Shown here: in pieces, positions 14,393 to 48,412 of the stretch
Layout: the number at the start of each line of letters is the position of its first letter
Numbering within the stretch: the first letter of the stretch is position 1
From: Microbulbifer pacificus
GTDB lineage: Bacteria > Pseudomonadota > Gammaproteobacteria > Pseudomonadales > Cellvibrionaceae
Length of the DNA: 64,000 nucleotides
Direction of reading: 5' to 3'
Assembly: GCF_033723955.1 (NCBI RefSeq)
Contig: NZ_CP137555.1
Location: 1,322,501 to 1,386,500 of the forward strand
Notes under the pieces: generated by a model
The model's input: the letters and a program-made list of their open reading frames with translations, nothing else
Told to the model about the DNA's origin: nothing
Database searches by the model: none
Program-made: the position numbers and the translations under genes

Positions 14393-14411
14393 GCCTCGGC
14401 GACAGGCAAAC

Positions 14412-14447
14412 AAAAAGGCCCCGCTGTGGAAGCAGCGGGGCCTTTTT
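14412..14447. terminator. Bidirectional intrinsic terminator between bamD and nadE
   Basis: GGCCCCGCTG pairs with CAGCGGGGCC around a short loop, flanked by AAAAA on the left and TTTTT on the right, so it can stop both the bamD (+) and nadE (-) transcripts. Confidence 0.9.
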
Positions 14448-14485
14448 GTTTTGGGCAATCTCGTTGCCTGCGCAATCTGCCGGGG

Positions 14486-31205: not shown

Positions 31206-31312
31206 TGGTTATCTACTTCGGTTGTAGCGCTAAAACAATTCATAGTTCGTGCAGCTGAACTTCGAAACCCAAAGGCTTACGAAGCACAGAAATAACATTT
31301 GAAGCGGGAGTA

Positions 31313-31406
31313 ATGGGGATCAGGTTTCAAAACCGTCGGTGACAGGGACGTCACCGACGGAGCGTACATGGATGTACTCGCAGCGATTTTGAAACCTGAT
31401 ACCCAT
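31313..31406 (-). repeat. Three-way-junction intergenic repeat, unit A
   Basis: The outer arms 31313-31332 and 31387-31406 are complementary over 20 bp with one mismatch. Inside are a perfect 11-bp hairpin (31333-31343 with 31350-31360, loop AGGGAC) and a perfect 6-bp hairpin GTACAT-GG-ATGTAC (31364-31377). The orientation is minus relative to units B and D. On the right flank GGTGGCG reads on the minus strand, as at the other units. Confidence 0.85.
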
Positions 31407-31481
31407 TGCTTCCGCGCCACCGGACTTAGAACAGAGCTCCGTTACCAAATATCGGGGACCCTATGAAGCTGGTCTGGTGGC

Positions 31482-31593
31482 GGCAGAGCACCGGGTACGA
31501 GTTTTCAGGACCGCTGTGAATACGTCCCTGTAAGCTGCGTCGGCAACATCCCTGTTGCCGACGCTCCTGAAAACTCGTACCCGATGCTCTGCC
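31482..31593 (+). repeat. Three-way-junction intergenic repeat, unit B
   Basis: The outer arms 31482-31510 and 31565-31593 pair over 29 bp with one mismatch. The short inner stem TAC-GTCCCT-GTA is at 31521-31532; the long inner stem 31538-31548 with 31553-31563 has 11 perfect pairs with loop TCCC. It is preceded by GGTGGCGG and followed by CCTTCGC. It shares the inner linker CCGCTGTGAA with unit D. Confidence 0.85.
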
Positions 31594-31635
31594 TTCGCAT
31601 CTGGGTTTTGTGCCATTCAGATGCGAAGGAGTAAC

Positions 31636-32613
31636 TTAATTTGGTTTGCAGTTGGCAAACCACGCTTTCGCGTTTTCGATGTCTTCGGCGATTTTCTGTT
31701 TGAGGACGTCGAGGGACTCAAACTTTTCTTCGTCGCGCAATTTATGGTGGAAGGTGACGGCGATTTCGCGGCCGTACAGGTCGCCGCTGAAATCGAATAG
31801 GTGCACTTCCAGCAGTGGTTTTGCACCCTCGCCTTCCACCGTGGGGCGGAAGCCCACATTGGCCACACCCGCCACTTCCATACAGCTGCCGCTCATGGGG
31901 CTGCCATTGGTGCGCTTTGCGGTCACCGTGTACACCCCCACCAGCGGAGAGCGGTAGCGGTGTAGTCGAACATTCGCCGTGGGTGCACCCAGCTGCCGGC
32001 CAAGAGCTCGGCCTCGTGCCACCAGGCCGGTAATTCTATAGGGCTTGCCCAATAACTGTTGTGCCAGGGCAAAGTCCGCGTTCTGTAAGGCCTCGCGGAT
32101 GCGGGTACTGCTCACTCGCTCACCGGCGATTTCCAGGGTGGCCGTGTCTTCAACACTAAAGCCCGCCTCCGCACCAGCTTTCTGCAGCAGCACATAGTCG
32201 CCACTGCGATCGCAACCGAAACGGAAATCGTCTCCCACCACAAGATGGCGCACCCCGAGGCCGTCTACCAGCACCTGCCGGATAAACGCCTCCGCACTCA
32301 GGCTGCGCAAGCGCTCGTTGAACTGCAGGCACAACACACGGTCGACACCCGCCGCAAACAGCGCCAGTACCTTCTCCTTGAAACGCATCAGTCGCGCCGG
32401 CGCTTTTTCGCCGGAGAAGTACTCATGGGGCTGGGGTTCGAAGATGATCGCCACCGAGGGCAGCTTGCGCTCGGCCGCGCGCGCCCGTAACTGGGTGATG
32501 ATGGCCTGATGCCCCAGGTGCACGCCGTCGAATGAACCGATAGTCGCCACGCATCCGTGGTGGCGCGGCCGCAGGTTATGCAACCCGCGAATCAGCTCCC
32601 GTTGCTCGGTCAC
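31636..32613 (-). CDS. ribF: Bifunctional riboflavin kinase / FAD synthetase
   Basis: Makes FMN and then FAD. The 325-residue protein has the N-terminal nucleotidyltransferase domain (VATIGSFDGVHLGHQAII; VVGDDFRFGCDRSGD; RVSSTRIREAL) and the C-terminal kinase domain (YRITGLVARGRALGRQLGAPTANV, GVANVGFRPTVEG, EVHLFDFSGDLYG). It starts with GTG at 32613. Conserved position between murJ and ileS. Confidence 0.95.
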   Translation of the reverse strand: MTEQRELIRGLHNLRPRHHGCVATIGSFDGVHLGHQAIITQLRARAAERKLPSVAIIFEPQPHEYFSGEKAPARLMRFKEKVLALFAAGVDRVLCLQFNERLRSLSAEAFIRQVLVDGLGVRHLVVGDDFRFGCDRSGDYVLLQKAGAEAGFSVEDTATLEIAGERVSSTRIREALQNADFALAQQLLGKPYRITGLVARGRALGRQLGAPTANVRLHRYRSPLVGVYTVTAKRTNGSPMSGSCMEVAGVANVGFRPTVEGEGAKPLLEVHLFDFSGDLYGREIAVTFHHKLRDEEKFESLDVLKQKIAEDIENAKAWFANCKPN

Positions 32614-32710
32614 AGTGCTTCACTCACCCTTCTAGTCACCCTTGATTGCCCTTGCAAAATCAAGCGGCGCAGTATAACGGATTTGGCCGCCTTCTGGGGA
32701 TTTCGGTCAT

Positions 32711-34375
32711 TCATGAGGTGGCGCGGAAATGGCGCGGGCGCAGACCGCTGGCCAGCAGTACCAATCCGTAGGTGGCGCCACCGGCGGCGACCAGCGCGCT
32801 CATGCGCCAGGCCCGCTGCCACCAGGGCCAGTCGTGCCAGCTCGGCCAGTAGTGGAGTACCGCCAGCAACACCGCCGCCATAGCCAGGTTGGCCAGCAAC
32901 AGCCGCGTAAGGAAAGAGCGCCACCCCGCTTCGGGCGCGTAGACCCCGCCCTGGCGCAACCCCCGGTACAGCAGCCAGGCATTGATTGCCGCCTGCCCGG
33001 CGGTGGCCATGGCGAGCCCCATATGGCCGAGCTGGAAATACATATGCAGTGGCACCACGAACAACAGGCTCAGCACCATCTTTGAGGCAATGGCGATCAG
33101 CCCGAAGCGCACCGGTGTCGTCGTATCCTGGCGGGCGAAGTAGCCCGGCGCCAGCACCTTGATCAACATGAACGCCAGCAGGCCGAAGGTATAGGCTCGT
33201 AGTGACCAGGCCGCCATCTGCATATCGCGGGAGGTCATGTTTCCATATTCAAACAGGCTGGTGAGCAGCGGCTCCGCCAGTACGAACAGCGCCACTGCCG
33301 CCGGCAGCGCGATCAGGGTGACACTGCGCAGCGCCCAGTCGATGGTGTGGCGGAAGCGTTTCGGGTCGCCACCGGCATGCTGCCGCGACAGGTTCGGCAG
33401 GATCACCGTGGCCACGGCGACACCAAACACCCCAAGGGGCAGCTCGGTGAGGCGATCGGAAAAATACAGCCAGGTCACCGACCCGGTAGGCAGGAAAGAC
33501 GCCAGTACCGTGTCCAGCACCAGGCTGATCTGGGTGACCGAGACACCAAAGATCGCCGGCGCCATCAATCGCAGGATCTTGCGCACCCCCGGGTGCTGCC
33601 AATCCCACCTGGGTCGTGGCAGCAAGCCCTCCCGCACCAGAAACGGAATCTGGAACAGCAGCTGAACCATTCCCGCAACAAGCACCCCCCAGGCCAGGGA
33701 CATGACCGCCGGCTCAAACCAGCCAGCGGCCACCGTGGCCGCACCGATCAGTACCAGATTCAGAAAGATCGGCGTCAGCGCCGGGATGGCAAATCGGTCG
33801 AAACTGTTGAGAATGGCACCGGCAAACCCGGTCAGGGAAATCAGCATCAGGTAGGGAAAGGTGATGCGCAGCATATCCGTCGCCATGGCGAACTTCTGCG
33901 GCTCATTGCCGCCCCACCACCAGCCGAAGGCAAAGATGCCCGTCACGAGCGGTGCGCACAGTACGCCGAACAGGGTCACCAGCAGCAGCGTACCGCCAAG
34001 CGCTCCGGCTACCCGGTCATTCAACTCTTTTACCGCTGCCAGCCCGCCATTCTGACGGTATTCCGCCAGCACCGGCACAAACGCCTGGGAAAAGGCCCCT
34101 TCCGCAAACAGGCGACGGAAGAAATTCGGAATCTTGAAGGCTACGAAGAAGGCGTCGGCAGCATCGCCAGCACCGGTGAGTCGCGCAAATACCACATCCC
34201 GTGCCAACCCCATAATCCGCGACAACAGAGTGGCGCCGCCGACTACCGATGTTCCGCGCAGCAGCCCCCGCTGCGGACTATCTTTCTTTGCTTGTGATTG
34301 GGGGCCTTGCGACTCTGAGCCCTGCCCCTGAGGGACCGGCTTGGACTGTTCCTGTTCGGGCGAAGGTGCTGCCAC
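32711..34375 (-). CDS. murJ: Lipid II flippase MurJ
   Basis: MviN/MurJ polytopic membrane protein moving lipid II across the inner membrane for peptidoglycan synthesis. It has 554 residues with about 14 TM segments; the family hallmarks are LLRGTSVVGGATLLSRIMGLARDVV and FFRRLFAEGAFSQAFVPVLAEY. An N-terminal extension of about 36 residues rich in Gln/Ser/Pro/Lys precedes the first helix and is longer than in E. coli; it follows from the GTG start at 34375 and may be shorter if a later start is used. It is the first gene of the murJ-ribF series. Confidence 0.94.
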   Translation of the reverse strand: MAAPSPEQEQSKPVPQGQGSESQGPQSQAKKDSPQRGLLRGTSVVGGATLLSRIMGLARDVVFARLTGAGDAADAFFVAFKIPNFFRRLFAEGAFSQAFVPVLAEYRQNGGLAAVKELNDRVAGALGGTLLLVTLFGVLCAPLVTGIFAFGWWWGGNEPQKFAMATDMLRITFPYLMLISLTGFAGAILNSFDRFAIPALTPIFLNLVLIGAATVAAGWFEPAVMSLAWGVLVAGMVQLLFQIPFLVREGLLPRPRWDWQHPGVRKILRLMAPAIFGVSVTQISLVLDTVLASFLPTGSVTWLYFSDRLTELPLGVFGVAVATVILPNLSRQHAGGDPKRFRHTIDWALRSVTLIALPAAVALFVLAEPLLTSLFEYGNMTSRDMQMAAWSLRAYTFGLLAFMLIKVLAPGYFARQDTTTPVRFGLIAIASKMVLSLLFVVPLHMYFQLGHMGLAMATAGQAAINAWLLYRGLRQGGVYAPEAGWRSFLTRLLLANLAMAAVLLAVLHYWPSWHDWPWWQRAWRMSALVAAGGATYGLVLLASGLRPRHFRATS

Positions 34376-34575
34376 GTCCCTGCTTCCTGATGATCGGCGC
34401 CGGATACCGGCCAGAAGTTTGAATGTAGAAGGAAAGAATGGGCGGCAAGTCTACCTCAAACCGCGACCACGGGGACATGCTAATCCCGCACCCTACGGTT
34501 GGCGCAATACGGAACTATACTCAGTTTAAGCCGTTGGCTAGCCGCAGGGACTGGCGGCCACAGAGGAGAAACGGA

Positions 34576-34716
34576 ATGACCATTAACGCGCTGATCATTG
34601 CGCTGATACTGGCGGCACTGCTGTACGCGGTTGTCGCCATGGGCCCACGCCCCCAGCGAGTGCGGGTGAGGATTGACCAGGCCCGCGACAGCCGCTACCG
34701 GCGGTCGATGGAATGA
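34576..34716 (+). CDS. 46-residue single-pass membrane protein
   Basis: ATG 34576 is preceded by GAGGAGAAACGGA, an excellent ribosome site. The product MTINALIIALILAALLYAVV is one membrane helix followed by a basic tail (PRPQRVRVRIDQARDSRYRR). A longer frame from 34438 exists but its extra part looks noncoding. Not recognised; function unknown. It lies upstream of pdsO on the same strand, separated by about 200 bp containing the hairpin CACTGGCG-CCA-CGCCAGTG (34799-34817). Confidence 0.6.
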   Translation: MTINALIIALILAALLYAVVAMGPRPQRVRVRIDQARDSRYRRSME

Positions 34717-34920
34717 TTGCACAGCGACTTGCGCGGAGGCTGAACTGAGTCACAGGGCGGACCGCCACATTTCGCCATAATTGCTGCGAGATTTGCCCCA
34801 CTGGCGCCACGCCAGTGCCTCCTTGCGGGGTTTAAATGACACTCAACCGAGACGGAAACACCAACCCGATCGGAACCGAAGAGCAGTCATCCAAAACCCG
34901 AAATCGCAAGGAAAATGAGC

Positions 34921-35631
34921 ATGAAAAAGATGTTGTTGGCAGTTACCCTGAGCAGCCTGGCCCTGAATAGCTTCGCCGCCCCCGAGGGCGCCAAAAACAC
35001 CGAGAATAAAGCCCAGGGCTCAGCCCTGACCCCGGCCAAACAGGCCACAGTATTTACCGGCGCCGCAGTTGCAGGTGCCGCCGTAGGTGGCCCGGTCGGA
35101 TTCATTGCCGGCGCCCTCGGTGGAGCCTGGCTGGGCGAACAGATCAAGCAAGCGGAAGAGGCTGACATGCTCGCAACACAACTGACCGATAGTCGCGCGG
35201 AACTCGGCAACCTGGCACAACAACTGGACGCGGCGCGACTTTCCGCCAATGACGCCCGCGAGCTGGCGATGGAAAGCCTGGAGTTCCAGATGCTGTTCAC
35301 CACCGGCGACGACCAGCTGCAGGAAGCGCAGGAGCGCCAGGTAGCGGCGATGGCCGACTTCCTCAACCGCCACCCGCAACTGCAAGTACTCCTTGAAGGT
35401 CACTCCGACCCGCGCGGTAGCGACGGCTACAACAACGTGCTCTCCGACCAGCGCGCCCTCAGTGTGCAGCGCGCCCTGGAAGCCTACGGTGTAGCGCCGG
35501 AACGTATCGCGCGCCGCGCCCTCGGTGCCCGTCGCTCCACGGCCACCAAGGGTGATCTCGACGCCTACGCCCTCGAACGCCGGGTAGACATCCACTTCGG
35601 CCTGCCGGAATCCACGGCCGGTACCTTCTAA
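34921..35631 (+). CDS. pdsO: Sortase-system-associated OmpA-like protein PdsO
   Basis: About 236 residues: Sec signal MKKMLLAVTLSSLALNSFAA, a Gly/Ala-rich segment (VAGAAVGGPVGFIAGALGGA, about 50-70) that could insert in a membrane, a helical region (75-125), and a C-terminal OmpA-like peptidoglycan-binding domain (LLEGHSDPRGSDGYN, LSDQRALSVQRAL). This architecture matches the OmpA-like component of the proteobacterial dedicated sortase system, supported by adjacent pdsR and pdsS. ATG 34921 has AAGGA at good spacing; ATG 34915 is too close. A GC-rich hairpin with a T-tract follows at 35751. Confidence 0.8.
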   Translation: MKKMLLAVTLSSLALNSFAAPEGAKNTENKAQGSALTPAKQATVFTGAAVAGAAVGGPVGFIAGALGGAWLGEQIKQAEEADMLATQLTDSRAELGNLAQQLDAARLSANDARELAMESLEFQMLFTTGDDQLQEAQERQVAAMADFLNRHPQLQVLLEGHSDPRGSDGYNNVLSDQRALSVQRALEAYGVAPERIARRALGARRSTATKGDLDAYALERRVDIHFGLPESTAGTF

Positions 35632-35750
35632 ACCTCAATCCCGCGGCCGCCGCTCCACAAAAGCGGCGGCTGGGCACTCACCGGCGGAAGCCATACACCT
35701 CCGGTAAATGACCTGCCAATTCCCGAGCAACCCCTGTAAGCCGTAACCTT

Positions 35751-35778
35751 GCGCGCGCCAAAAGCAGCGCGCTTTTTT
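35751..35778 (+). terminator. Intrinsic terminator after pdsO
   Basis: GCGCGC (35751-35756) pairs with GCGCGC (35767-35772), followed by TTTTTT. Another strong stem, GCCGCCGCT/AGCGGCGGC (35646-35670), lies just after the pdsO stop but without a T-tract. It separates pdsO from pdsR transcription. Confidence 0.65.
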
Positions 35779-35865
35779 GTATAGGCATCTTTTTTGCCAG
35801 CAGCCCCGATGTTCAGGCATGATTTTCCGCCACACACAAAACAGATAATCGGTGCCGAAGCCCGC

Positions 35866-36558
35866 ATGAACAGCCCCACCATCGCCATCGTCGAAGATGA
35901 AATCGCCATCGCCGAGAACTACCGCGATGCCCTGCGCCGCACCGGTTACCAGGTTCAGCTCTACCACACCCGGCCCGAGGCGCTGGCCGCGTTTCAGCAG
36001 CGGCTGCCGGACCTGGCAGTCATCGACGTTGGACTGGGAGCCGAAATCGAGGGCGGGTTCGACCTGTGCCGCGAGCTGCGCGCCATGGCCCCCACCCTGC
36101 CGATCCTGTTCCTGACCGCGCGGGACTCGGAACTGGACATCATTTCCGGCTTGCGGCTCGGCGCGGACGACTACCTCACCAAGGACATTTCCCTGCCGCA
36201 TATGCAGGCCCGCATCAGCGCCCTACTGCGCCGGGTGAGCATCATGCAATCCAAGAGTGACGACAGCGAAATCCTCACCCAGGGTGACCTGAAGCTGGAC
36301 GTGTCGCGCCTGCACTGCCACTGGAAAGGCGAGCCGGTAGATCTCACGGTGACAGAATTCTGGATAGTGCACGCGCTGGCGAAACGCCCGGGGCATGTCA
36401 AATCCCGCACCCAGTTGATGGAAGCGGCCCGGGTGGTGCTGGATGACAACACCATCACCTCCCATGTGAAGCGCATCCGGCGCAAATTCCAGACCATGGA
36501 CCCCGGCTTCGACGCCATCGGCACCGCCTATGGCATGGGCTACCGCTGGCAGGTTTAA
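35866..36558 (+). CDS. pdsR: Dedicated sortase system response regulator PdsR
   Basis: OmpR-family regulator of 230 residues: receiver (IAIVEDEIAIAENYRDAL; phospho-Asp in LAVIDVGLG; Lys in DDYLTKDISL) and a winged-helix DNA-binding domain (LTVTEFWIVHALAKRPGHVK, AYGMGYRW). The sequence and pairing with pdsS fit the regulator of the proteobacterial dedicated sortase system. ATG 35866 (MNSPTIAIVEDE) was preferred over the longer frame from 35794. It lies 20 bp before pdsS. Confidence 0.82.
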   Translation: MNSPTIAIVEDEIAIAENYRDALRRTGYQVQLYHTRPEALAAFQQRLPDLAVIDVGLGAEIEGGFDLCRELRAMAPTLPILFLTARDSELDIISGLRLGADDYLTKDISLPHMQARISALLRRVSIMQSKSDDSEILTQGDLKLDVSRLHCHWKGEPVDLTVTEFWIVHALAKRPGHVKSRTQLMEAARVVLDDNTITSHVKRIRRKFQTMDPGFDAIGTAYGMGYRWQV

Positions 36559-36578
36559 GAGCGAATTAAGGGCATCTT

Positions 36579-38645
36579 ATGAACCTGCGCCGCCAACTGG
36601 TATTGCTGAGCCTCTGCGCCCTGGCCCTGCCCTGGGCCGGCTGCCAGTATTTGCGCCAGGTCGACCAGGCCCTCGCCCAGGGCCAGATGCAGACGCTGGA
36701 GGCCACTGGCAACGCCATCGCCGCGCGACTCGCCAGCGCGCCAGAACTGATTGCACCAGACCCCCTCCGCAACGGCCGGCCGCCTGGCGCCCAGCTCTAC
36801 CTGAACACCCTGCAACAGGCACCGGTAGTGGACGGCTACGGCGAAGAGTGGCGCGCGCTGCGCCTGCAACCCAGGCAGCTGCTCGATCAGGATGGGGAGC
36901 CCCTCGCCCAGATCACCCTGGGCCACCACGGCAACCAGGTTTACCTGCTGCTAACCGCCAGAGACCGCAGCCCCAGCTACCACGACCCCCGCAGCAGTGG
37001 CATTTCCAGCGGCGATACCGTGGAAATCTACACCGCCAGCCAGCAGTACACACTGCCGGTAGCGAGCCAGGGGCCGGTGCAGGCCATGTGGTACAACCCC
37101 CGCCGCAGCCAGTACGAACGGGAACTGCGTATCCGCGGCCGCTGGACTGCTTCACCACAGGGTTACCAATTGGAACTGAGCCTTCCCGCCGCATTGAGCG
37201 GCGGCGAACTGGGGGTCCGCGTACTGGATCGCACCCACAGCGACGGCGGTGTCCCGGCACGGCTCTCCAGCACCCTCCCCAATGACGGGCGCCCCGGCGC
37301 TTTAGTGGAACCACTGCCGCAACTGCAGCGGGAGCTGGAACACTTCGCCCGCCCGGAGCTGCAGCTGACGGTGGTGGACCAGGAGGGCTTCGTGCTTGCT
37401 CGTACCGGCGGAGACTGGTATGCCGAACGAGAAGAGGTCGAACAACCAGCGGGCGCGGCACAACCCTGGTTGCGGGAATGGTTCTACCGCCAGCTACTGG
37501 CCAACGATACATTACCGCCACTGCCCAGGGACCAATACCCGGAAAATTTGACCCAGAATCGGGAAACCACCGGCCAGTGGTTCAGTGCCCCTGAAAACAA
37601 TGCGCATAGCGCTGGCGACGAGCGTATCGGCGTGGCCAGCGTGCCGGTGGTAACCCGCGCCGACGATATTATCGAGCGACCACTGCTCGGGCGGGTGATC
37701 GCCGCCCAGTCCGCTAGCGCCCTGCAGTCGCTCACCGAATCCGCCGCCCGCCGCCTGTGGCTTACCACTGCCGCTGCCGCAGGCCTGGTACTGCTATTAC
37801 TGCTGGGCTATGCCAGCTGGCTGTCCTGGCGCATCCGCCAGCTGCACCGCGCCGCCAGCAATGCCGTGGATGCCAGCGGCCGCCTGCGGGGGGATTTCCC
37901 ACAACCCTTCATCCACGATGAACTCGGTGCCCTCAACCGGGCCTTTGCCAGCCTGCTGGCGGAGCTGGATCACTATCACCAGTACCTGCGCAGCCTGGCG
38001 AGCAAGTTGTCCCACGAATTGCGCACGCCGCTCGCGGTGATGCGTTCCTCCCTCGACAACCTCGCCGCCGGCGAGCTGGACAGCGACAGTCGCCGCTATG
38101 CCGAGCGCGCTGCCGACGGCGGCGCGCGCCTGTCATCGATCCTGAACGCCCTCTCCGCCGCCAATCACCTGGAGGCGAGTATCAGCCAGGCAGAACGCGA
38201 AGACTTCGACCTGGCAGACCTGATGCAGGCCCTCACCCACAGCTACGCGGACGCCCACCCCGACCACCATTTCGAACTGCAGTGCCCGGAAACGCCACAG
38301 GTATACCACGGTGCGCCGGAACTGCTGGCGCAATTGTTGGACAAGCTGGTGGACAACGCCGTGAGCTTCGCCCCCGAGGGCAGTACCATCCACATGGCGC
38401 TGGCGGCAGAGCGCAGGGAATACCTGCTGAGGGTCAGCAATAGCGGGCCACGGCTACCCCAGGGGTTCGGCCAGAAACTGTTCGACTCCCTGGTCTCCGT
38501 GCGGGACGACGGCGGCAAGGCCGGTCACCTCGGGCTCGGGCTGCATATCGCGCGGCTGATCGCCGACTTCCACCGGGGCGAGCTCAGCGCCGCCAACCGC
38601 GAGGATGGCAGCGGCGTCACTTTCACACTGTGCCTGCCCCGCTGA
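36579..38645 (+). CDS. pdsS: Dedicated sortase system histidine kinase PdsS
   Basis: 688-residue sensor kinase. An N-terminal TM (about 6-24) is followed by a periplasmic domain whose start APVVDGYGEEWRAL and later SSGDTVEIYT resemble CBM9-type carbohydrate-binding modules (about 85-215, inference). A second extracytoplasmic segment leads to TM2 (LWLTTAAAAGLVLLLLLGYA, near 395-415), HAMP, HisKA (SKLSHELRTPLAVMRSS, His near 478), the N box LVDNAVSFAPEG and the G box HLGLGLHIARLIADFHRG. Architecture and adjacency to PdsR and PdsO fit the dedicated sortase system kinase. No sortase or LPXTG-type substrate gene adjoins. Confidence 0.82.
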   Translation: MNLRRQLVLLSLCALALPWAGCQYLRQVDQALAQGQMQTLEATGNAIAARLASAPELIAPDPLRNGRPPGAQLYLNTLQQAPVVDGYGEEWRALRLQPRQLLDQDGEPLAQITLGHHGNQVYLLLTARDRSPSYHDPRSSGISSGDTVEIYTASQQYTLPVASQGPVQAMWYNPRRSQYERELRIRGRWTASPQGYQLELSLPAALSGGELGVRVLDRTHSDGGVPARLSSTLPNDGRPGALVEPLPQLQRELEHFARPELQLTVVDQEGFVLARTGGDWYAEREEVEQPAGAAQPWLREWFYRQLLANDTLPPLPRDQYPENLTQNRETTGQWFSAPENNAHSAGDERIGVASVPVVTRADDIIERPLLGRVIAAQSASALQSLTESAARRLWLTTAAAAGLVLLLLLGYASWLSWRIRQLHRAASNAVDASGRLRGDFPQPFIHDELGALNRAFASLLAELDHYHQYLRSLASKLSHELRTPLAVMRSSLDNLAAGELDSDSRRYAERAADGGARLSSILNALSAANHLEASISQAEREDFDLADLMQALTHSYADAHPDHHFELQCPETPQVYHGAPELLAQLLDKLVDNAVSFAPEGSTIHMALAAERREYLLRVSNSGPRLPQGFGQKLFDSLVSVRDDGGKAGHLGLGLHIARLIADFHRGELSAANREDGSGVTFTLCLPR

Positions 38646-38711
38646 TAGGCCGCTCAATCGAGCGCTGAATCCACCACCGACAGGGCAGTCACAAACTCAC
38701 CGCGCAGGCGG

Positions 38712-38739
38712 TTGACAAACAAACAACGCTGGGGATAAT
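38712..38739 (+). promoter_or_regulatory. Strong sigma70 promoter of rpsT
   Basis: A perfect TTGACA (38712-38717) and GATAAT (38734-38739, five of six) are spaced by 16 bp, placing the start about 60 nt before rpsT. Confidence 0.7.
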
Positions 38740-38804
38740 GTCGCGTCCCAAACGGGCCCCCGGCCCGATTGTTCGAGTTATCAAGATCCAGACAGGAGCA
38801 ACCG

Positions 38805-39071
38805 GTGGCCAACTCACCTCAAGCGAAGAAACGCGCGCGCCAGAACGACAAGCGCCGCAATCACAACGCCAGTCTGCGCTCCATGGTGCGCACCTACATC
38901 AAAAAGGTAGTTGCAGCCATCGATGCAGGTGATACTGAAAAAGCCAAATCCGCTTACGCGGCTGCTGTGCCGGTCATCGACCGCATGGCCGACAAAGGCA
39001 TTATTCACAAGAACAAGGCTGCTCGTCACAAGAGCCGCCTGAACGCCCAGATCAAGAAACTGGCCGCCTAA
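38805..39071 (+). CDS. rpsT: Small ribosomal subunit protein bS20
   Basis: 88-residue basic protein binding 16S rRNA helices 9 and 44: [20 protein letters not shown] then [10 protein letters not shown] and [20 protein letters not shown]. Translation starts at GTG 38805 with AGGAG nine bases upstream. In E. coli rpsT starts at UUG and autoregulates translation, so a non-ATG start is in keeping. It is usually adjacent to murJ; here the small membrane protein and pds genes lie between. Confidence 0.97.
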
Positions 39072-39091
39072 GCCAATTTCTGACTGAGCAT

Positions 39092-39120
39092 AAAAAACCC
39101 CGCACATGCGGGGTTTTTTA
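39092..39120 (+). terminator. Intrinsic terminator of rpsT
   Basis: CCCCGC (39098-39103) and GCGGGG (39108-39113) form a stem with loop ACAT, flanked by A6 and T6. Confidence 0.92.
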
Positions 39121-39162
39121 TTGCTCGAAAAAACCTACTGCCCCTTCTGCGAAGGTTCCGGT

Positions 39163-39258
39163 ATCGGGAATTGCTTTGCGAGACCTTCCGCGAGAGGGAC
39201 CTCGCGGAAGAGCCCCCATGGATGGGTTTACGGCGTGTCTCGCAAAGTAATTCCCGAT
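39163..39258 (-). repeat. Three-way-junction intergenic repeat, unit C
   Basis: The outer arms 39163-39184 and 39237-39258 are 22-bp complements with one mismatch. The long inner stem CTTCCGCGAG/CTCGCGGAAG has loop AGGGAC (39185-39210); the short inner stem is CCCAT-GG-ATGGG (39215-39226). It lies between the rpsT terminator and the proB stop, in minus orientation. Confidence 0.85.
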
Positions 39259-39284
39259 GGCGGGACCGCCACTCAACGACGTAA

Positions 39285-40418
39285 TCAGAGAAGGATTAGG
39301 TTGTCACGGTGGATCAGCTCGTCGTCATCGCGATAGCCCAGTAGCTCCACAATACGCTCCGACGATTGACCGCAGATCCGGGCGGCCTCACCGCTGTCAT
39401 AATTCACCAGTCCGCGCGCAATCTCCTCGCCGCCAGCATTGAAGCAACTCACCAGATCACCGCGATGGAAGCGTCCGTCGATTCCCACCACACCCACCGG
39501 CAGCAGGCTTTTACCCTGACTGCGCAGCGCGCGCTCGGCACCACCATCCAGGTAGAGCTTGCCGCGCACCTGCAGCTGCCCCGCAAGCCAGCGCTTGCGC
39601 GCGGTCAGCGGATCCGCCTCCGGCATCAACAGTGTGCCGAGACACTCACCCGCCGCCACACGCTCGATGACCGCTTCCGTACTGCCGCCAACAATGACCG
39701 TGCGCGCCCCGGAGCGCGCCGCCAGCTGCGCCGCGCGCACCTTGGTGGACATACCGCCGCGACCGAGGCCACTGCGGGAGCCGCCGGCCATCGCCACCAG
39801 CCGCGGATCCGTGGCCACCGCCTCGCGCACCAGCTCGGCATTGGGATTGTCCCGAGGATCTTCGGTAAACAGGCCGTCCGCATCGGTGAGAATCAACAGC
39901 ACGTCGGCCTCCACCAGGTTGGCCACCAGGGCTCCCAGGGTATCGTTGTCGCCGAAGCGGATCTCGTCGGTTACCACCGTGTCGTTTTCATTGATGATCG
40001 GCACCGCCCCCAGCGACAGCAGCGTACGCAGGGTACTGCGGGCATTGAGATAGCGGGTGCGATTGGAGAGGTCGTCGTGGTCCAGCAGGATCTGCGCGGT
40101 GCGGCAGTCATACTGGCCAAAGGCGTGCTCGTACACCTGCACCAGATGGCTCTGGCCGACGGCGGCGGCAGCCTGCAGCTGGTGGATGGACTCCGGGCGC
40201 TTGCGCCAGCCCAGGCGGTCCATGCCCGCAGCCACCGCACCGGAAGAAACCAGCAGCACTTCGATGCCCTGCCGGCGCAGGGTGCCGATCTGCCCCGCCC
40301 AGTTGTGGATCGCGGCGCGATTGACGCCGCGACCGTTGTCAGTGAGCAGAGCACTGCCGATTTTGATCACCCAGCGCTTGCTGGTGGAGAGTTGCTGACG
40401 CGACGAGATGGAATCCAT
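39285..40418 (-). CDS. proB: Glutamate 5-kinase
   Basis: First enzyme of proline synthesis, phosphorylating glutamate; feedback-inhibited by proline in the family. The 377-residue protein has an amino-acid-kinase domain ([55 protein letters not shown]) and a C-terminal PUA domain (about 290-370). It is downstream of obgE on the same strand, the order seen in Pseudomonas, with 73 bp between. Confidence 0.96.
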
Positions 40419-40491
40419 TTCTTCCTCATATCAGGACGCACCCCTGCGGGTCGTACCTGTGCCAGGACAATCCTCTGTAAGGGCGGAAAAC

Positions 40492-41709
<1,218 letters not shown>

Positions 41710-41766
41710 TTACCCGGTCTTCAGTGTAATTTGCCCGGGATCAATCCAAAAAAACGGGCAAGATAC

Positions 41767-41795
41767 AAAAAAGCCCCGCAATTGCGGGGCTTTTT
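41767..41795 (-). terminator. Intrinsic terminator downstream of rpmA
   Basis: GCCCCGCAA/TTGCGGGGC forms a compact stem flanked by A-rich and T-rich runs; the symmetric flanks allow function on either strand, but only rplU-rpmA reads into it from nearby. Confidence 0.88.
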
Positions 41796-41813
41796 ATCGG
41801 ACGCTGTGACCGC

Positions 41814-42071
41814 TTAGGCAGTTTCGATAGAAACAAACTTGCGGTTATTCACGCCTTTCACCTCAAACTTCACTACGCCGTCGGCGGTAGCGAACAGGGT
41901 GTGATCTTTGCCCATACCAACGTTCACACCAGCGTGGAACTTGGTACCGCGCTGACGCACGATGATGCTGCCTGCAGAGACAGCCTGGCCGCCAAAGCGC
42001 TTCACGCCCAGGCGTTTACTTTCGGAATCGCGACCGTTGCGCGTACTACCGCCAGCTTTCTTGTGTGCCAT
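41814..42071 (-). CDS. rpmA: Large ribosomal subunit protein bL27
   Basis: 85 residues, starting [20 protein letters not shown], whose N-terminal tail reaches the peptidyl-transferase centre; then [20 protein letters not shown] and [14 protein letters not shown]. Full length for the family. It lies 17 bp after rplU, one operon. Confidence 0.98.
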
Positions 42072-42088
42072 GAGTCGTTACTCCTCTC

Positions 42089-42400
42089 TTATGCCTTGAT
42101 GCCAGTGATCTTAACTTCGGTGTACCACTGACGGTGACCCTGACGCTTCAGGGAGTGCTTACGACGACGGAACTTGATGATTTTCACCTTGTCACCGCGG
42201 CCGTGGCCCAGAACTTCTGCAGTCACCTTGGCGCCTTCAACAACCGGCGCACCGATGCTGATGGTTTCGCCGTTAACTACCATCAGAACCTTATCGAAAT
42301 CGACAGATTCGCCGGTAGCTACTTCAATTTTTTCCAGGCGCAGAACTTCGCCTTCTACTACACGGTGTTGCTTGCCACCGCTCTCAAAAACAGCGTACAT
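42089..42400 (-). CDS. rplU: Large ribosomal subunit protein bL21
   Basis: 103 residues from ATG 42400: [20 protein letters not shown], then [20 protein letters not shown] and the C-terminal [19 protein letters not shown]. The longer frame to 42454 lacks family similarity at its N-terminus. The leader is about 170 nt if the promoter at 42580-42608 is used. Confidence 0.98.
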
Positions 42401-42713
42401 ATTTCTATGCTCCAACAAAATGGACGACACGAAGCAGCGGCCGGGCCCAATCACCAGTAATTGGTGACCACCTGGCCAGCATTTTGGGAGCTTGCGCCGT
42501 TTGGTTAAAACGTCTTCCCGGCCCGTGGACTACCCCATGATCGAGCATGGCAGGTAAGCCCGGATTGAGCGGGGCGCAGATTCTAATCAATTCGGCCGTC
42601 TGGCACAATAGCGCGTTTTTCGGACAACCTTTGCCTCGCGCCTTTCCGCCCGGGGCCAAAACCGCTAGTCTTGCCGCCGACAGAAAACCAAAGCGCAGTA
42701 TAAGGAATCCTGC
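42401..42713. other. rplU-ispB divergent intergenic region
   Basis: 313 bp without a gene. It holds the rplU promoter (entered separately), a perfect inverted repeat TCACCA-GTAAT-TGGTGA at 42451-42467 within the rplU 5' leader, and the unassigned ispB promoter. The long leader and its hairpin could allow post-transcriptional control of rplU-rpmA; no known leader family was recognised. Confidence 0.6.
42580..42608 (-). promoter_or_regulatory. Sigma70-type promoter of rplU-rpmA
   Basis: Minus strand TTGTGC (42608-42603), 17 bp, TAGAAT (42585-42580): five of six at -10, three of six at -35, ideal spacing. Confidence 0.5.
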
Positions 42714-43676
42714 ATGTTGCCTTTCCACCAGGTAGCCGCCGACGATTTTGCGGCGGTCAATCAGACCATCATCGACCAACTGCACTCGGACGTTCCCCTG
42801 GTGGAGAACATTGGTCACTATCTGGTCGAGGCCGGCGGCAAGCGCCTGCGCCCACTACTGGTGCTGCTGTGTGCCCGCGCGGCGGGATACCAGGGCGGCG
42901 ATCATATCAGTCTGGCGGCGATCATTGAGTTTATCCACACCGCGACCCTGCTGCACGACGATGTGGTGGACACCTCTGACATGCGCCGCGGCCGTATCAC
43001 CGCCAATGCCCAGTGGGGCAATGCGCCGGCGGTGCTCGTTGGTGACTTCCTGTACTCGCGCGCGTTCCAGATGATGGTGGCACTGAAAGACATGGACATC
43101 ATGGCGATCCTGTCTGACACCACCAACACCATTGCCGAGGGCGAGGTGCAGCAGCTGGTGAACGCCGGAGATCCCGCGGTCACGGAGGCCAACTACCTCA
43201 ATGTTATCCACAAGAAGACCGGCGCGCTGTTCGAAGCGGCCTGTGAAACCGCGGCGGTACTCGCCGGCTGCAGCGCGGACGAGCGCGAATCCCTGAAACT
43301 CTACGGTCGCCATCTGGGCTCTGCGTTCCAGCTGGTGGACGATGCGCTGGATTACCGCGGCAATTCGGAAGAGCTGGGCAAGAATGTGGGCGACGACCTC
43401 GCCGAGGGCAAACCCACCCTGCCGCTGATTTACGCTATGGCGAATGGCACCGAAGAACAAGCGGCGCTGGTGCGGGAGGCGATCGAGCAGAAATCGGCGG
43501 ATAAGCTCGCCGAGATTGTTACGGCTATCGAGGCTTGTGGTGCGCTCGATTACACCTTTGACCGCGCCAGGAAAGAAGTAGAACTTGCGTTGGAAAAACT
43601 GGAATTTTTGCCAGATGGGGAGCACAAGACTGCGCTTCGGCAGTTGGCGGAATTTTCGATCCAGCGGACCACTTAA
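42714..43676 (+). CDS. ispB: Octaprenyl (all-trans polyprenyl) diphosphate synthase
   Basis: Makes the isoprenoid side chain of ubiquinone. The 320-residue trans-prenyltransferase has the first Asp-rich motif LLHDDVVDTSDMRRG and the second QLVDDALDYRGN, with GKRLRPLLVLLCARAAGY near the N-terminus. It is divergent from rplU as in most gammaproteobacteria and ends at a strong terminator. Chain length cannot be determined from sequence alone. Confidence 0.95.
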   Translation: MLPFHQVAADDFAAVNQTIIDQLHSDVPLVENIGHYLVEAGGKRLRPLLVLLCARAAGYQGGDHISLAAIIEFIHTATLLHDDVVDTSDMRRGRITANAQWGNAPAVLVGDFLYSRAFQMMVALKDMDIMAILSDTTNTIAEGEVQQLVNAGDPAVTEANYLNVIHKKTGALFEAACETAAVLAGCSADERESLKLYGRHLGSAFQLVDDALDYRGNSEELGKNVGDDLAEGKPTLPLIYAMANGTEEQAALVREAIEQKSADKLAEIVTAIEACGALDYTFDRARKEVELALEKLEFLPDGEHKTALRQLAEFSIQRTT

Positions 43677-43678
43677 TG

Positions 43679-43707
43679 AAAAGCCCCGGAAAATTCCGGG
43701 GCTTTTT
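43679..43707 (+). terminator. Intrinsic terminator of ispB
   Basis: AAAAGCCCCGGAA pairs with TTCCGGGGCTTTT around AA, with a following T-run. Confidence 0.92.
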
Positions 43708-43752
43708 GTTTGTGGTTCTGATTGTTTGTGGTTCTGAAGCAGGTCCTGTGGC

Positions 43753-43863
43753 GGCTGGGTACCGGGTGCGGGTTTTCAGGACCGCTGTGAACCCATCCCT
43801 GGGCGCTGCGGCGCAAACATCCTGTTTGCGACGCTCCTGAAAACCCGCACCCGGCACCCCGCC
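43753..43863 (+). repeat. Three-way-junction intergenic repeat, unit D
   Basis: The outer arms 43753-43781 and 43835-43863 pair over 29 bp with two mismatches. The short inner stem CCC-ATCCCT-GGG is at 43792-43803; the long inner stem CGCAAACA/TGTTTGCG has loop TCC (43812-43830). Closest relative is unit B, sharing GTTTTCAGGACCGCTGTGAA, but its arm and inner-stem bases differ on both sides together. Confidence 0.85.
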
Positions 43864-43929
43864 TTCACATCGCACTTTGGTACTTCGACGCTATTGCCAT
43901 AAACGAAGTGCGAAAGCTCGAAGCGAAGG

Positions 43930-44039
43930 CCCTGATATCGGGGACTGCCTCGCGAGACCTTCTAAAACAGGGATGTTTTAGAAGAGCCCCCATGGATGGG
44001 TTCACGGCGTGTCTCGCGAGGCAGTACCCGATAGCAGGG
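43930..44039 (-). repeat. Three-way-junction intergenic repeat, unit E
   Basis: The outer arms 43930-43958 and 44011-44039 pair over 29 bp with two mismatches. The long inner stem CTTCTAAAACA/TGTTTTAGAAG has loop GGGA (43959-43984); the short inner stem is CCCAT-GG-ATGGG (43989-44000). Minus orientation; closest relative is unit C. Confidence 0.85.
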
Positions 44040-44081
44040 TCGCCACCATTCTCAACTACGAAGTCCCAACCAAAAAACCAC

Positions 44082-48350: not shown

Positions 48351-48372
48351 TCGCTCTGGCTTTCCGCCAAAC

Positions 48373-48412
48373 AAAAAGGGCGAGTCGCACTGCGACTCGC
48401 CCTTTTTGTTTT
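48373..48412 (+). terminator. Intrinsic terminator of fabAB (possibly bidirectional)
   Basis: AAAAAGGGCGAGTCGC pairs with GCGACTCGCCCTTTTT around ACT; the symmetric A/T flanks can also serve the converging SDR gene. Confidence 0.92.

Follow-up and report, generated by a model that had tools for sequence, protein, structure and literature searches.

Intergenic three-way-junction repeats of Microbulbifer pacificus: possible YPAL-type mobile elements with a candidate CsrA dimer site on one strand

Why does an intergenic repeat preserve its fold while its sequence changes from copy to copy, and which of its two strands has selection seen? The question is raised by five repeat units in a stretch of 64,000 nucleotides (nt) from Microbulbifer pacificus (contig NZ_CP137555.1, positions 1,322,501 to 1,386,500; hereafter, the window). 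The units belong to a single family whose stems covary strongly, whose arm mismatches are biased toward one strand, and whose two loops of the type ANGGAN lie on the strand that this bias keeps foldable. We tentatively interpret them, with a probability of roughly 0.45, as copies of a mobile element of the YPAL type, with a folded strand that is probably RNA and able to hold a CsrA dimer.

A dispersed family with covarying stems

All five units are present at the places given by an original prediction that was made from the sequence of the window, and an inverted-repeat search without prior knowledge recovers all of their arm pairs (29–38 nt, 87–94% complementary). The predicted three-way junction, in which a long outer stem leads to two inner hairpins, is likewise found in all five, and folding of the strand that carries the ANGGAN loops yields z-scores between -8.3 and -11.3 (200 shuffles). 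The predicted borders are correct in position but too narrow, because conserved sequence runs about 20 nt past both ends of the 125-nt core, which brings the element to about 165 bp.

The claim that the stems covary is borne out by an alignment of 45 copies from the same genome, in which 91.2% of the cells are paired and changes on both sides are present in 32 of the 40 pairs (shuffled mean, 22.8). The covariation score is 0.505, compared with 0.161 after shuffling and at most 0.099 when the structure is slid by 1–3 columns. Covariation was tested on five measures with 500 shuffles; for four of them no shuffle reaches the observed value, and the fifth, the number of further pair types, is slightly raised (60 vs. 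54.4; reached by 11 of the 500 shuffles). Watson–Crick pairing in the well-paired columns stands at 95% and averages 68% once arms are swapped among 41 copies. In 15 genomes with an orthologous ileS-ribF site, compensatory change is seen in 16 of 30 arm pairs for unit 2 and in 3 of 30 for unit 1. Copies from other genera (L137–L162) have near-perfect arms of 25–36 pairs; arm sequences vary among these copies and even between the two members of one pair, as in L160. Pairing is kept across copies, in agreement with the proposal that it is maintained either by selection or by a mode of copying that preserves it.

The further copies that the prediction implied are abundant. A covariance model (R1) built exclusively from the 45 copies of the M. 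pacificus genome identifies at least 106 distinct copies in its 4.19 Mb (one strand kept per place), which were hand-picked from 192 matches by taking the best strand at each place; since scoring covered 150 of 2033 candidates, the count is a minimum, and the copies within one genome are related to one another rather than independent. R1 matches are present in 46 of 48 genomes of the genus, in 113 of 293 genomes (52 of 118 genera) of the order, and in 62 of 321 genomes of the class. Of 349 genomes sampled from the phylum, which include an unstated number from outside the class, 23 match, all 23 labelled as the same class or closer. Counts per genome stop at a ceiling of 73 in the genus and of 12 in the order and are thus again lower bounds, with five weak places (33–48 bits) left out. 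The comparisons below also use 37 copies from elsewhere, namely 33 high-scoring R1 matches from 26 loci, which lean toward good structure, and four copies from L164–L166; their sources are other genera, two contigs of a viral collection, and one Escherichia coli plasmid, and two of the 37 gave no helix.

The model also reaches the YPAL (RU-2) repeats of Yersinia. R1 finds a YPAL copy on a viral-collection contig (L164; 44.3 bits, E 3.5e-10) and another on an E. coli wastewater plasmid (L166; 34.8 bits). The former shares 164 identities with the 168-nt RU-2 sequence of Y. pestis printed in PMC2759123, whose printed strand forms two ANGGAN hairpins 24 nt apart. YPAL, originally described by De Gregorio in 2006 according to the citing papers, is characterized in the available text of PMC2229807 as a repeat of about 168 bp that contains internal inverted repeats and has target duplications of 3–26 bp at or near sites of dyad symmetry; core and flanks of the Microbulbifer units add up to a similar length.

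Two Rfam families are connected to the same repeats. The YPAL copy L164 scores 133.9 bits as Ysr224 (Yersinia small RNA 224; RF02770), and L142 scores 45.6 bits as TwoAYGGAY (RF01731; gathering score 43), with the two matches lying on opposite strands. An Rfam scan of the window yields no match at gathering scores, Ysr224 and TwoAYGGAY included; Ysr224 exceeds its cut-off in none of 369 genomes (best hit in the M. pacificus genome, 33.1 bits, below threshold), and TwoAYGGAY passes at one of 14 loci tested (L142). TwoAYGGAY shares an Rfam clan with RsmY, and CsrA binding has been proposed for it in the available text of PMC4333381. These sequence matches unite the Microbulbifer units with YPAL and Ysr224 in a single family, to which TwoAYGGAY is probably related.

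Strand bias and twin GGA loops

The mismatches in the outer arms distinguish the two strands of the element. On the model strand, A.C outnumbers G.U by 31:2 among copies from elsewhere (n = 35), by 198:23 among those of the M. pacificus genome (n = 106), and by 69:12 at orthologous sites; counted only in the columns that pair well, 41 own copies give 18:1. Because an A.C on the model strand is a G.U on the opposite strand, the latter (the folding strand) stays foldable. At two arm positions, roughly every second own copy has A.C; with these positions removed, the ratios are 25:2 elsewhere, 93:23 in the own genome, and 25:12 at orthologous sites. Removal of five positions leaves 69:18 in the own genome, and removal of seven leaves 10:1 elsewhere.

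When the own copies are grouped by the direction of the neighbouring genes and two positions are removed, a sense model strand gives 28:9, an antisense one 36:5, and a place in a convergent or divergent gap 29:9 (23:6, 24:3, and 22:9, respectively, when five are removed). This independence of gene direction makes transcription from neighbouring genes an unlikely source of the bias and suggests that selection has acted on a single strand belonging to the element itself, be it RNA or DNA. A foldability bias of this kind appears to be new. The underlying wobble-strand test is a cheap way to tell which single strand of any palindromic repeat selection has seen.

The bias bears on two alternative explanations. 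Covariation could be made by mutation if template switching or gene conversion perfects palindromes without selection, and related arm types do recur in a mixed pattern at one orthologous site (L231 vs. L233 and L235; by eye), which fits conversion. However, such correction would erase A.C and G.U alike on either strand and thus predicts strand-even wobble counts, whereas the observed counts are strand-uneven (31:2 and 18:1), and it leaves the conserved loops unexplained; we regard this origin as very improbable. A more serious competitor, if still rather unlikely, is that the folded strand is DNA, the substrate of a single-stranded-DNA transposase or recombinase, as are the ends of IS200/IS605 elements and attC sites, and that the resemblance to CsrA sites arose by chance or by convergence. 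Since G.T is better tolerated than A.C also in DNA, the same bias would result, and its independence of gene direction is expected if the copying step is selected.

The folding strand also carries the conserved loops. Two or more hairpins with an ANGGAN loop or its five-base form AGGAN are present in 86 of 106 own copies, 35 of 37 copies from elsewhere, and 38 of 42 orthologous copies; when only six-base loops are counted, copies with two loops number 67, 33, and 20, respectively. The same rule applied to the model strand finds two such loops in no copy and one loop in 5 of 185. In the 45 aligned copies, taken without any motif filter, the shorter hairpin has an ANGGAY loop in 44, and the longer one has an ANGGAN loop in 31 and the five-base AGGAN in the remaining 14. 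The closing pair is mostly C-G, and the loops are spaced by 23–24 nt in 82 of 86 own, 33 of 35 other, and all 38 orthologous two-loop copies. Such twin loops on the folding strand appear to be new.

These loops resemble the binding sites of CsrA and RsmE. The hexaloop ANGGAN is the recognition code given in the available text of PMC3791407 and PMC7652899, based on nuclear magnetic resonance for RsmE and on systematic evolution of ligands by exponential enrichment (SELEX) for CsrA, and the second and last loop bases of the units vary in the manner of the CsrA/RsmE contact pattern. The exact SELEX consensus RUACARGGAUGU, in which AC and GU are paired (PMC7652899, in part), occurs in 26 of the 106 own copies on the folding strand and in none on the other strand. 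According to the same partial source, one CsrA dimer bridges sites 10–63 nt apart, with an optimum above 18 nt, a range that includes the loop spacing of the units. The close fit of an A-N-G-G-A-N loop with a mostly C-G closing pair to an RNA–protein code speaks against a folded DNA strand.

From these sequence features, we infer the following scenario for the preferred reading of the units as a YPAL-type element with a CsrA-binding strand. The units would be copies of a non-autonomous YPAL/RU-2-type mobile element of about 165 bp that settles just 3' of stop codons, either singly or as an inverted pair, and that is distributed across Gammaproteobacteria, with amplification to more than 100 copies in the genome of this Microbulbifer. 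As RNA, the folded strand may hold one CsrA/RsmA dimer on its two loops, 23–24 nt apart. Transcribed copies might then serve as CsrA decoys or have protected 3' ends, or an RNA intermediate of the element might be protected. If this is true, a testable function follows: with more than 100 copies per genome and about two putative sites in each, transcribed copies could titrate CsrA. In a bolder version, which we consider unlikely, an element equipped with a ready-made CsrA dimer site has carried a genome-wide sponge for this regulator through Gammaproteobacteria. Every new insertion would then tie the 3' end of a further gene to the Csr network, and the folded strand would be a CsrA-shielded RNA intermediate, the element exploiting a host regulator for its propagation.

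Insertion sites, mobilization, and the case for CsrA

The units of the window (Table 1) lie in three gaps. Units 1 and 2 form a head-to-head pair between ileS and ribF, unit 3 is a lone unit between rpsT and proB, and units 4 and 5 form a tail-to-tail pair between ispB and algC; these gene names are read off the translations of open reading frames, with no database result behind them. Genome-wide, the 106 copies fall into 88 clusters: 70 contain a single unit, 14 are tail-to-tail and 4 head-to-head pairs, and direct pairs do not occur. Inversion of all 18 close pairs would also suit a folded DNA substrate.

Table 1. Cores and inner hairpin loops of the five units; positions are those of the window, and R1 scores and folding z-scores are given for the cores.
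Feature	Position	Strand	Evidence	Remark
Unit 1 core	31297..31421	model -, folding (ANGGAN) +	R1 124.7 bits, fold z -9.9	head toward unit 2
Unit 1 longer inner hairpin loop, AGGGAC (ANGGAN)	31344..31349	+	read from sequence, predicted structure	
Unit 1 shorter inner hairpin loop, ATGGAT (ANGGAN)	31368..31373	+	read from sequence, predicted structure	
Unit 2 core	31476..31600	model +, folding -	R1 138.1 bits, fold z -11.3	
Unit 2 shorter inner hairpin loop, AGGGAC	31524..31529	-	read from sequence, predicted structure	
Unit 2 longer inner hairpin loop, AGGGAT	31548..31553	-	read from sequence, predicted structure	
Unit 3 core	39147..39273	model -, folding +	R1 99.3 bits, fold z -8.3	single; some relatives' sites without unit
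Unit 3 longer inner hairpin loop, AGGGAC	39195..39200	+	read from sequence, predicted structure	
Unit 3 shorter inner hairpin loop, ATGGAT	39218..39223	+	read from sequence, predicted structure	
Unit 4 core	43747..43870	model +, folding -	R1 141.6 bits, fold z -9.5	
Unit 4 shorter inner hairpin loop, AGGGAT	43795..43800	-	read from sequence, predicted structure	
Unit 4 longer inner hairpin loop, AGGAT	43819..43823	-	read from sequence, predicted structure	five-base form
Unit 5 core	43921..44047	model -, folding +	R1 102.7 bits, fold z -10.0	
Unit 5 longer inner hairpin loop, AGGGAT	43969..43974	+	read from sequence, predicted structure	
Unit 5 shorter inner hairpin loop, ATGGAT	43992..43997	+	read from sequence, predicted structure	

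Other arrangements and variants also occur. In contrast to the inverted pairs of the M. pacificus genome, one locus (G089:C1:94408-95646) has an array of six direct repeats of the unit, spaced at about 226–229 bp. Variant units carry an extra GCTAGGCGCC at the junction ahead of the shorter hairpin (L100:474-611, L092:417-553, L096:487-623, L094:619-755, L083:283-418, and L091:207-345), and in others (L107:523-675, L116:675-834, and L171), a longer hairpin module with GGCCGAAGGCGCCG takes the place of one GGA loop in either inner hairpin. A viral origin was considered but not adopted: an exact core pattern matches three stretches of the viral collection, and a search of phage records with a YPAL-type query and a search of plasmid records with a unit from another genus gave no match. 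One contig of the viral collection carries two inverted units with 2.4 kb between them (L165:10616-13132). YPAL-like copies are present in 5 of 5426 E. coli genomes, at four plasmid places and one chromosomal place, and the three that were inspected (L166, L167, and L168) adjoin an alcohol dehydrogenase gene and insertion sequence elements.

The prediction that the units lie only between genes holds for all five and, with gene calls from our own codon-usage script, for 87 of the 88 clusters. Of these clusters, 62 are in tandem, 23 in convergent, and only 3 in divergent gaps, although 41 of 163 gaps longer than 150 bp in the same loci are divergent, and the median distance from stop codon to unit is 36 nt. 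The further claim that the units often stand beside a terminator applies to two of the three window sites (by eye) but did not emerge genome-wide, where a strict scan finds terminators at 7 of 108 gene ends with an element and at 30 of 247 without. Elsewhere in the window, perfect inverted repeats of 19–21 bp between A and T runs (14408-14451 and 48369-48411) are likely bidirectional terminators.

Their location suggests that the units may simply be 3'-end RNA hairpins that end or stabilize transcripts read in either direction, with CsrA uninvolved. The short distance to stop codons, the low frequency of separate terminators between stop and unit compared with control gene ends, and the very stable folds are all in favour, and YPAL is reported near sites of dyad symmetry with a possible effect on transcript stability (PMC2229807, available text). 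However, either strand would serve in this capacity, which leaves the strand bias and the one-strand GGA loops unexplained and makes this explanation quite improbable.

Occupied and empty sites, the comparison of which had been proposed, are both found among orthologous gaps. The element is present in 3 of the 24 rpsT-proB loci with both anchors, and several others have apparent remnants of its ends (by eye); between matches, the window gap is 163 bp longer than in G001, G002, and G003, all of which lack the element. The ispB-algC gap contains a pair in 6, one unit in 2, and none in 5 of 13 loci. The pair in the ileS-ribF gap is present in 15 of 21 loci; five lack it, two or three of these apparently by internal deletion (by eye), and one locus (L236) stops at a contig end within a partial unit. 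Rather than fresh, the copies at these three sites appear to be of some age, and deletion seems to have removed some of them. The defined ends of the original prediction are confirmed only in part: past GGTGGCG and CCTTCGC, conservation tapers off within about 20 nt, and target duplications are not detectable around 70 single copies. At L164 and L166, the unit is flanked by two near-identical terminator hairpins (by eye); in M. pacificus, dyad symmetry at the target amounts to the terminators at two of the three window sites and at 7 of 108 gene ends genome-wide.

The transposase partner that had been suggested (RAYT/Y1) is not supported: the sole Y1_Tnp match of the genome falls short of the Pfam cut-off (22.3 vs. 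23 bits). Relatives of this protein occur in 45 of the 48 genomes of the genus, element-poor ones included, and do not track copy number. The Y1-transposase-like protein with relatives in these 45 genomes (L101:1129-1866) has 245 amino acids, and its HUH region reads PNMIQI, which looks catalytically degenerate when compared with the HUH motif. That no enzyme was found other than one sub-threshold protein that does not follow copy number also counts against a folded DNA substrate. It is hardly conceivable that the units are REP/REPIN elements moved by a RAYT transposase: they share the palindromic structure, intergenic position, high copy number, and inverted pairs, but the best Y1_Tnp match is below the cut-off, its relatives are present whatever the copy number, and a 125-nt core with a three-way junction is unlike the tagged palindromes of 20–40 bp by which REP are defined in the available text of PMC3733652.

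The genome of M. pacificus encodes one csrA, and a family search finds csrA in 42 of the 48 genomes of the genus. Eleven of them (G009, G021, G028, G029, G030, G034, G038, G040, G043, G044, and G045) have 5–27 csrA matches each, compared with 0–2 in the other 37, and some of these matches lie within 1–3 kb of reverse transcriptases (L323 and L324). Genomes with at least five csrA are poor in R1 matches (at most 12 in 10 of 11, vs. 5 of 37 in the remainder), but because the eleven look like a single clade by their proB identities, the relationship between csrA number and element number is not used as support.

Several observations weigh against a mobile element with a CsrA-binding RNA strand. 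The longer hairpin has about nine pairs, whereas most CsrA hairpins obtained by SELEX have four or fewer (PMC7652899, in part), and the conserved junction TTCACRGCG of the folding strand is not required for CsrA. No csrA match is present in 6 of the 48 genomes, five of which are element-rich, with 65 or more units (G017, G022, G031, G032, and G036); unless csrA was overlooked by the search, this takes weight from CsrA and adds to folded DNA and to plain 3'-end hairpins. Single units in tandem gaps are oriented at random (24 in the same and 28 in the opposite direction), so host transcripts carry the "wrong" strand about half of the time. Ysr224, listed in Rfam as an expressed, temperature-responsive RNA, corresponds to the model strand, opposite to that with the ANGGAN loops. 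The bias is weak at orthologous sites without the recurrent positions (25:12), where 12 G.U trace back to one fixed pair in unit 1. Around 70 single copies, the mean direct-repeat score is 6.29 compared with 6.25 after shuffling, which gives no sign of target duplication; the Microbulbifer copies may be too old to show it. RVT_1 reverse transcriptases have no match in the M. pacificus genome; they occur in 21 of the 48 genomes of the genus and do not track copy number (by eye).

Comparison with known repeats and RNAs

Among intergenic palindromic repeats, REPIN differ from the units in size and core, and the units have no link to a RAYT; ERIC are likewise unlike them in size and core. The relationship to YPAL/RU-2 is much closer, as both are dispersed intergenic repeats of about 168 bp with a common core containing two ANGGAN hairpins. 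Unlike YPAL, the Microbulbifer units have outer arms of about 30 near-perfect pairs whose sequence varies by copy, exceed 100 copies, form inverted pairs in 18 of 88 clusters, and lack visible target duplications.

Ysr224 is connected to the family by its match on the YPAL copy L164, but its modelled strand has no ANGGAN loops. TwoAYGGAY resembles the units in having two A-Y-G-G-A-Y hairpins within an outer stem, on the same strand as the ANGGAN loops, but may be a look-alike, given that one of 14 loci passes its gathering score. The original prediction, made from sequence alone, could not see these matches, the one-strand bias, or the CsrA-type loops, and a literature search listed no paper that joins YPAL to TwoAYGGAY, Ysr224, or CsrA. 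A Yersinia repeat, a Yersinia small RNA, and probably an orphan RNA motif, which are treated separately in the papers found, would become one mobile family across many Gammaproteobacteria.

The CsrA/RsmA-binding RNAs CsrB, RsmY, and RsmZ share with the units the ANGGAN loops, the mostly C-G closing pair, and a spacing that allows a dimer to bridge two sites. Whereas each of them is the product of one dedicated small RNA gene with many sites, the units are dispersed repeats with two putative sites each.

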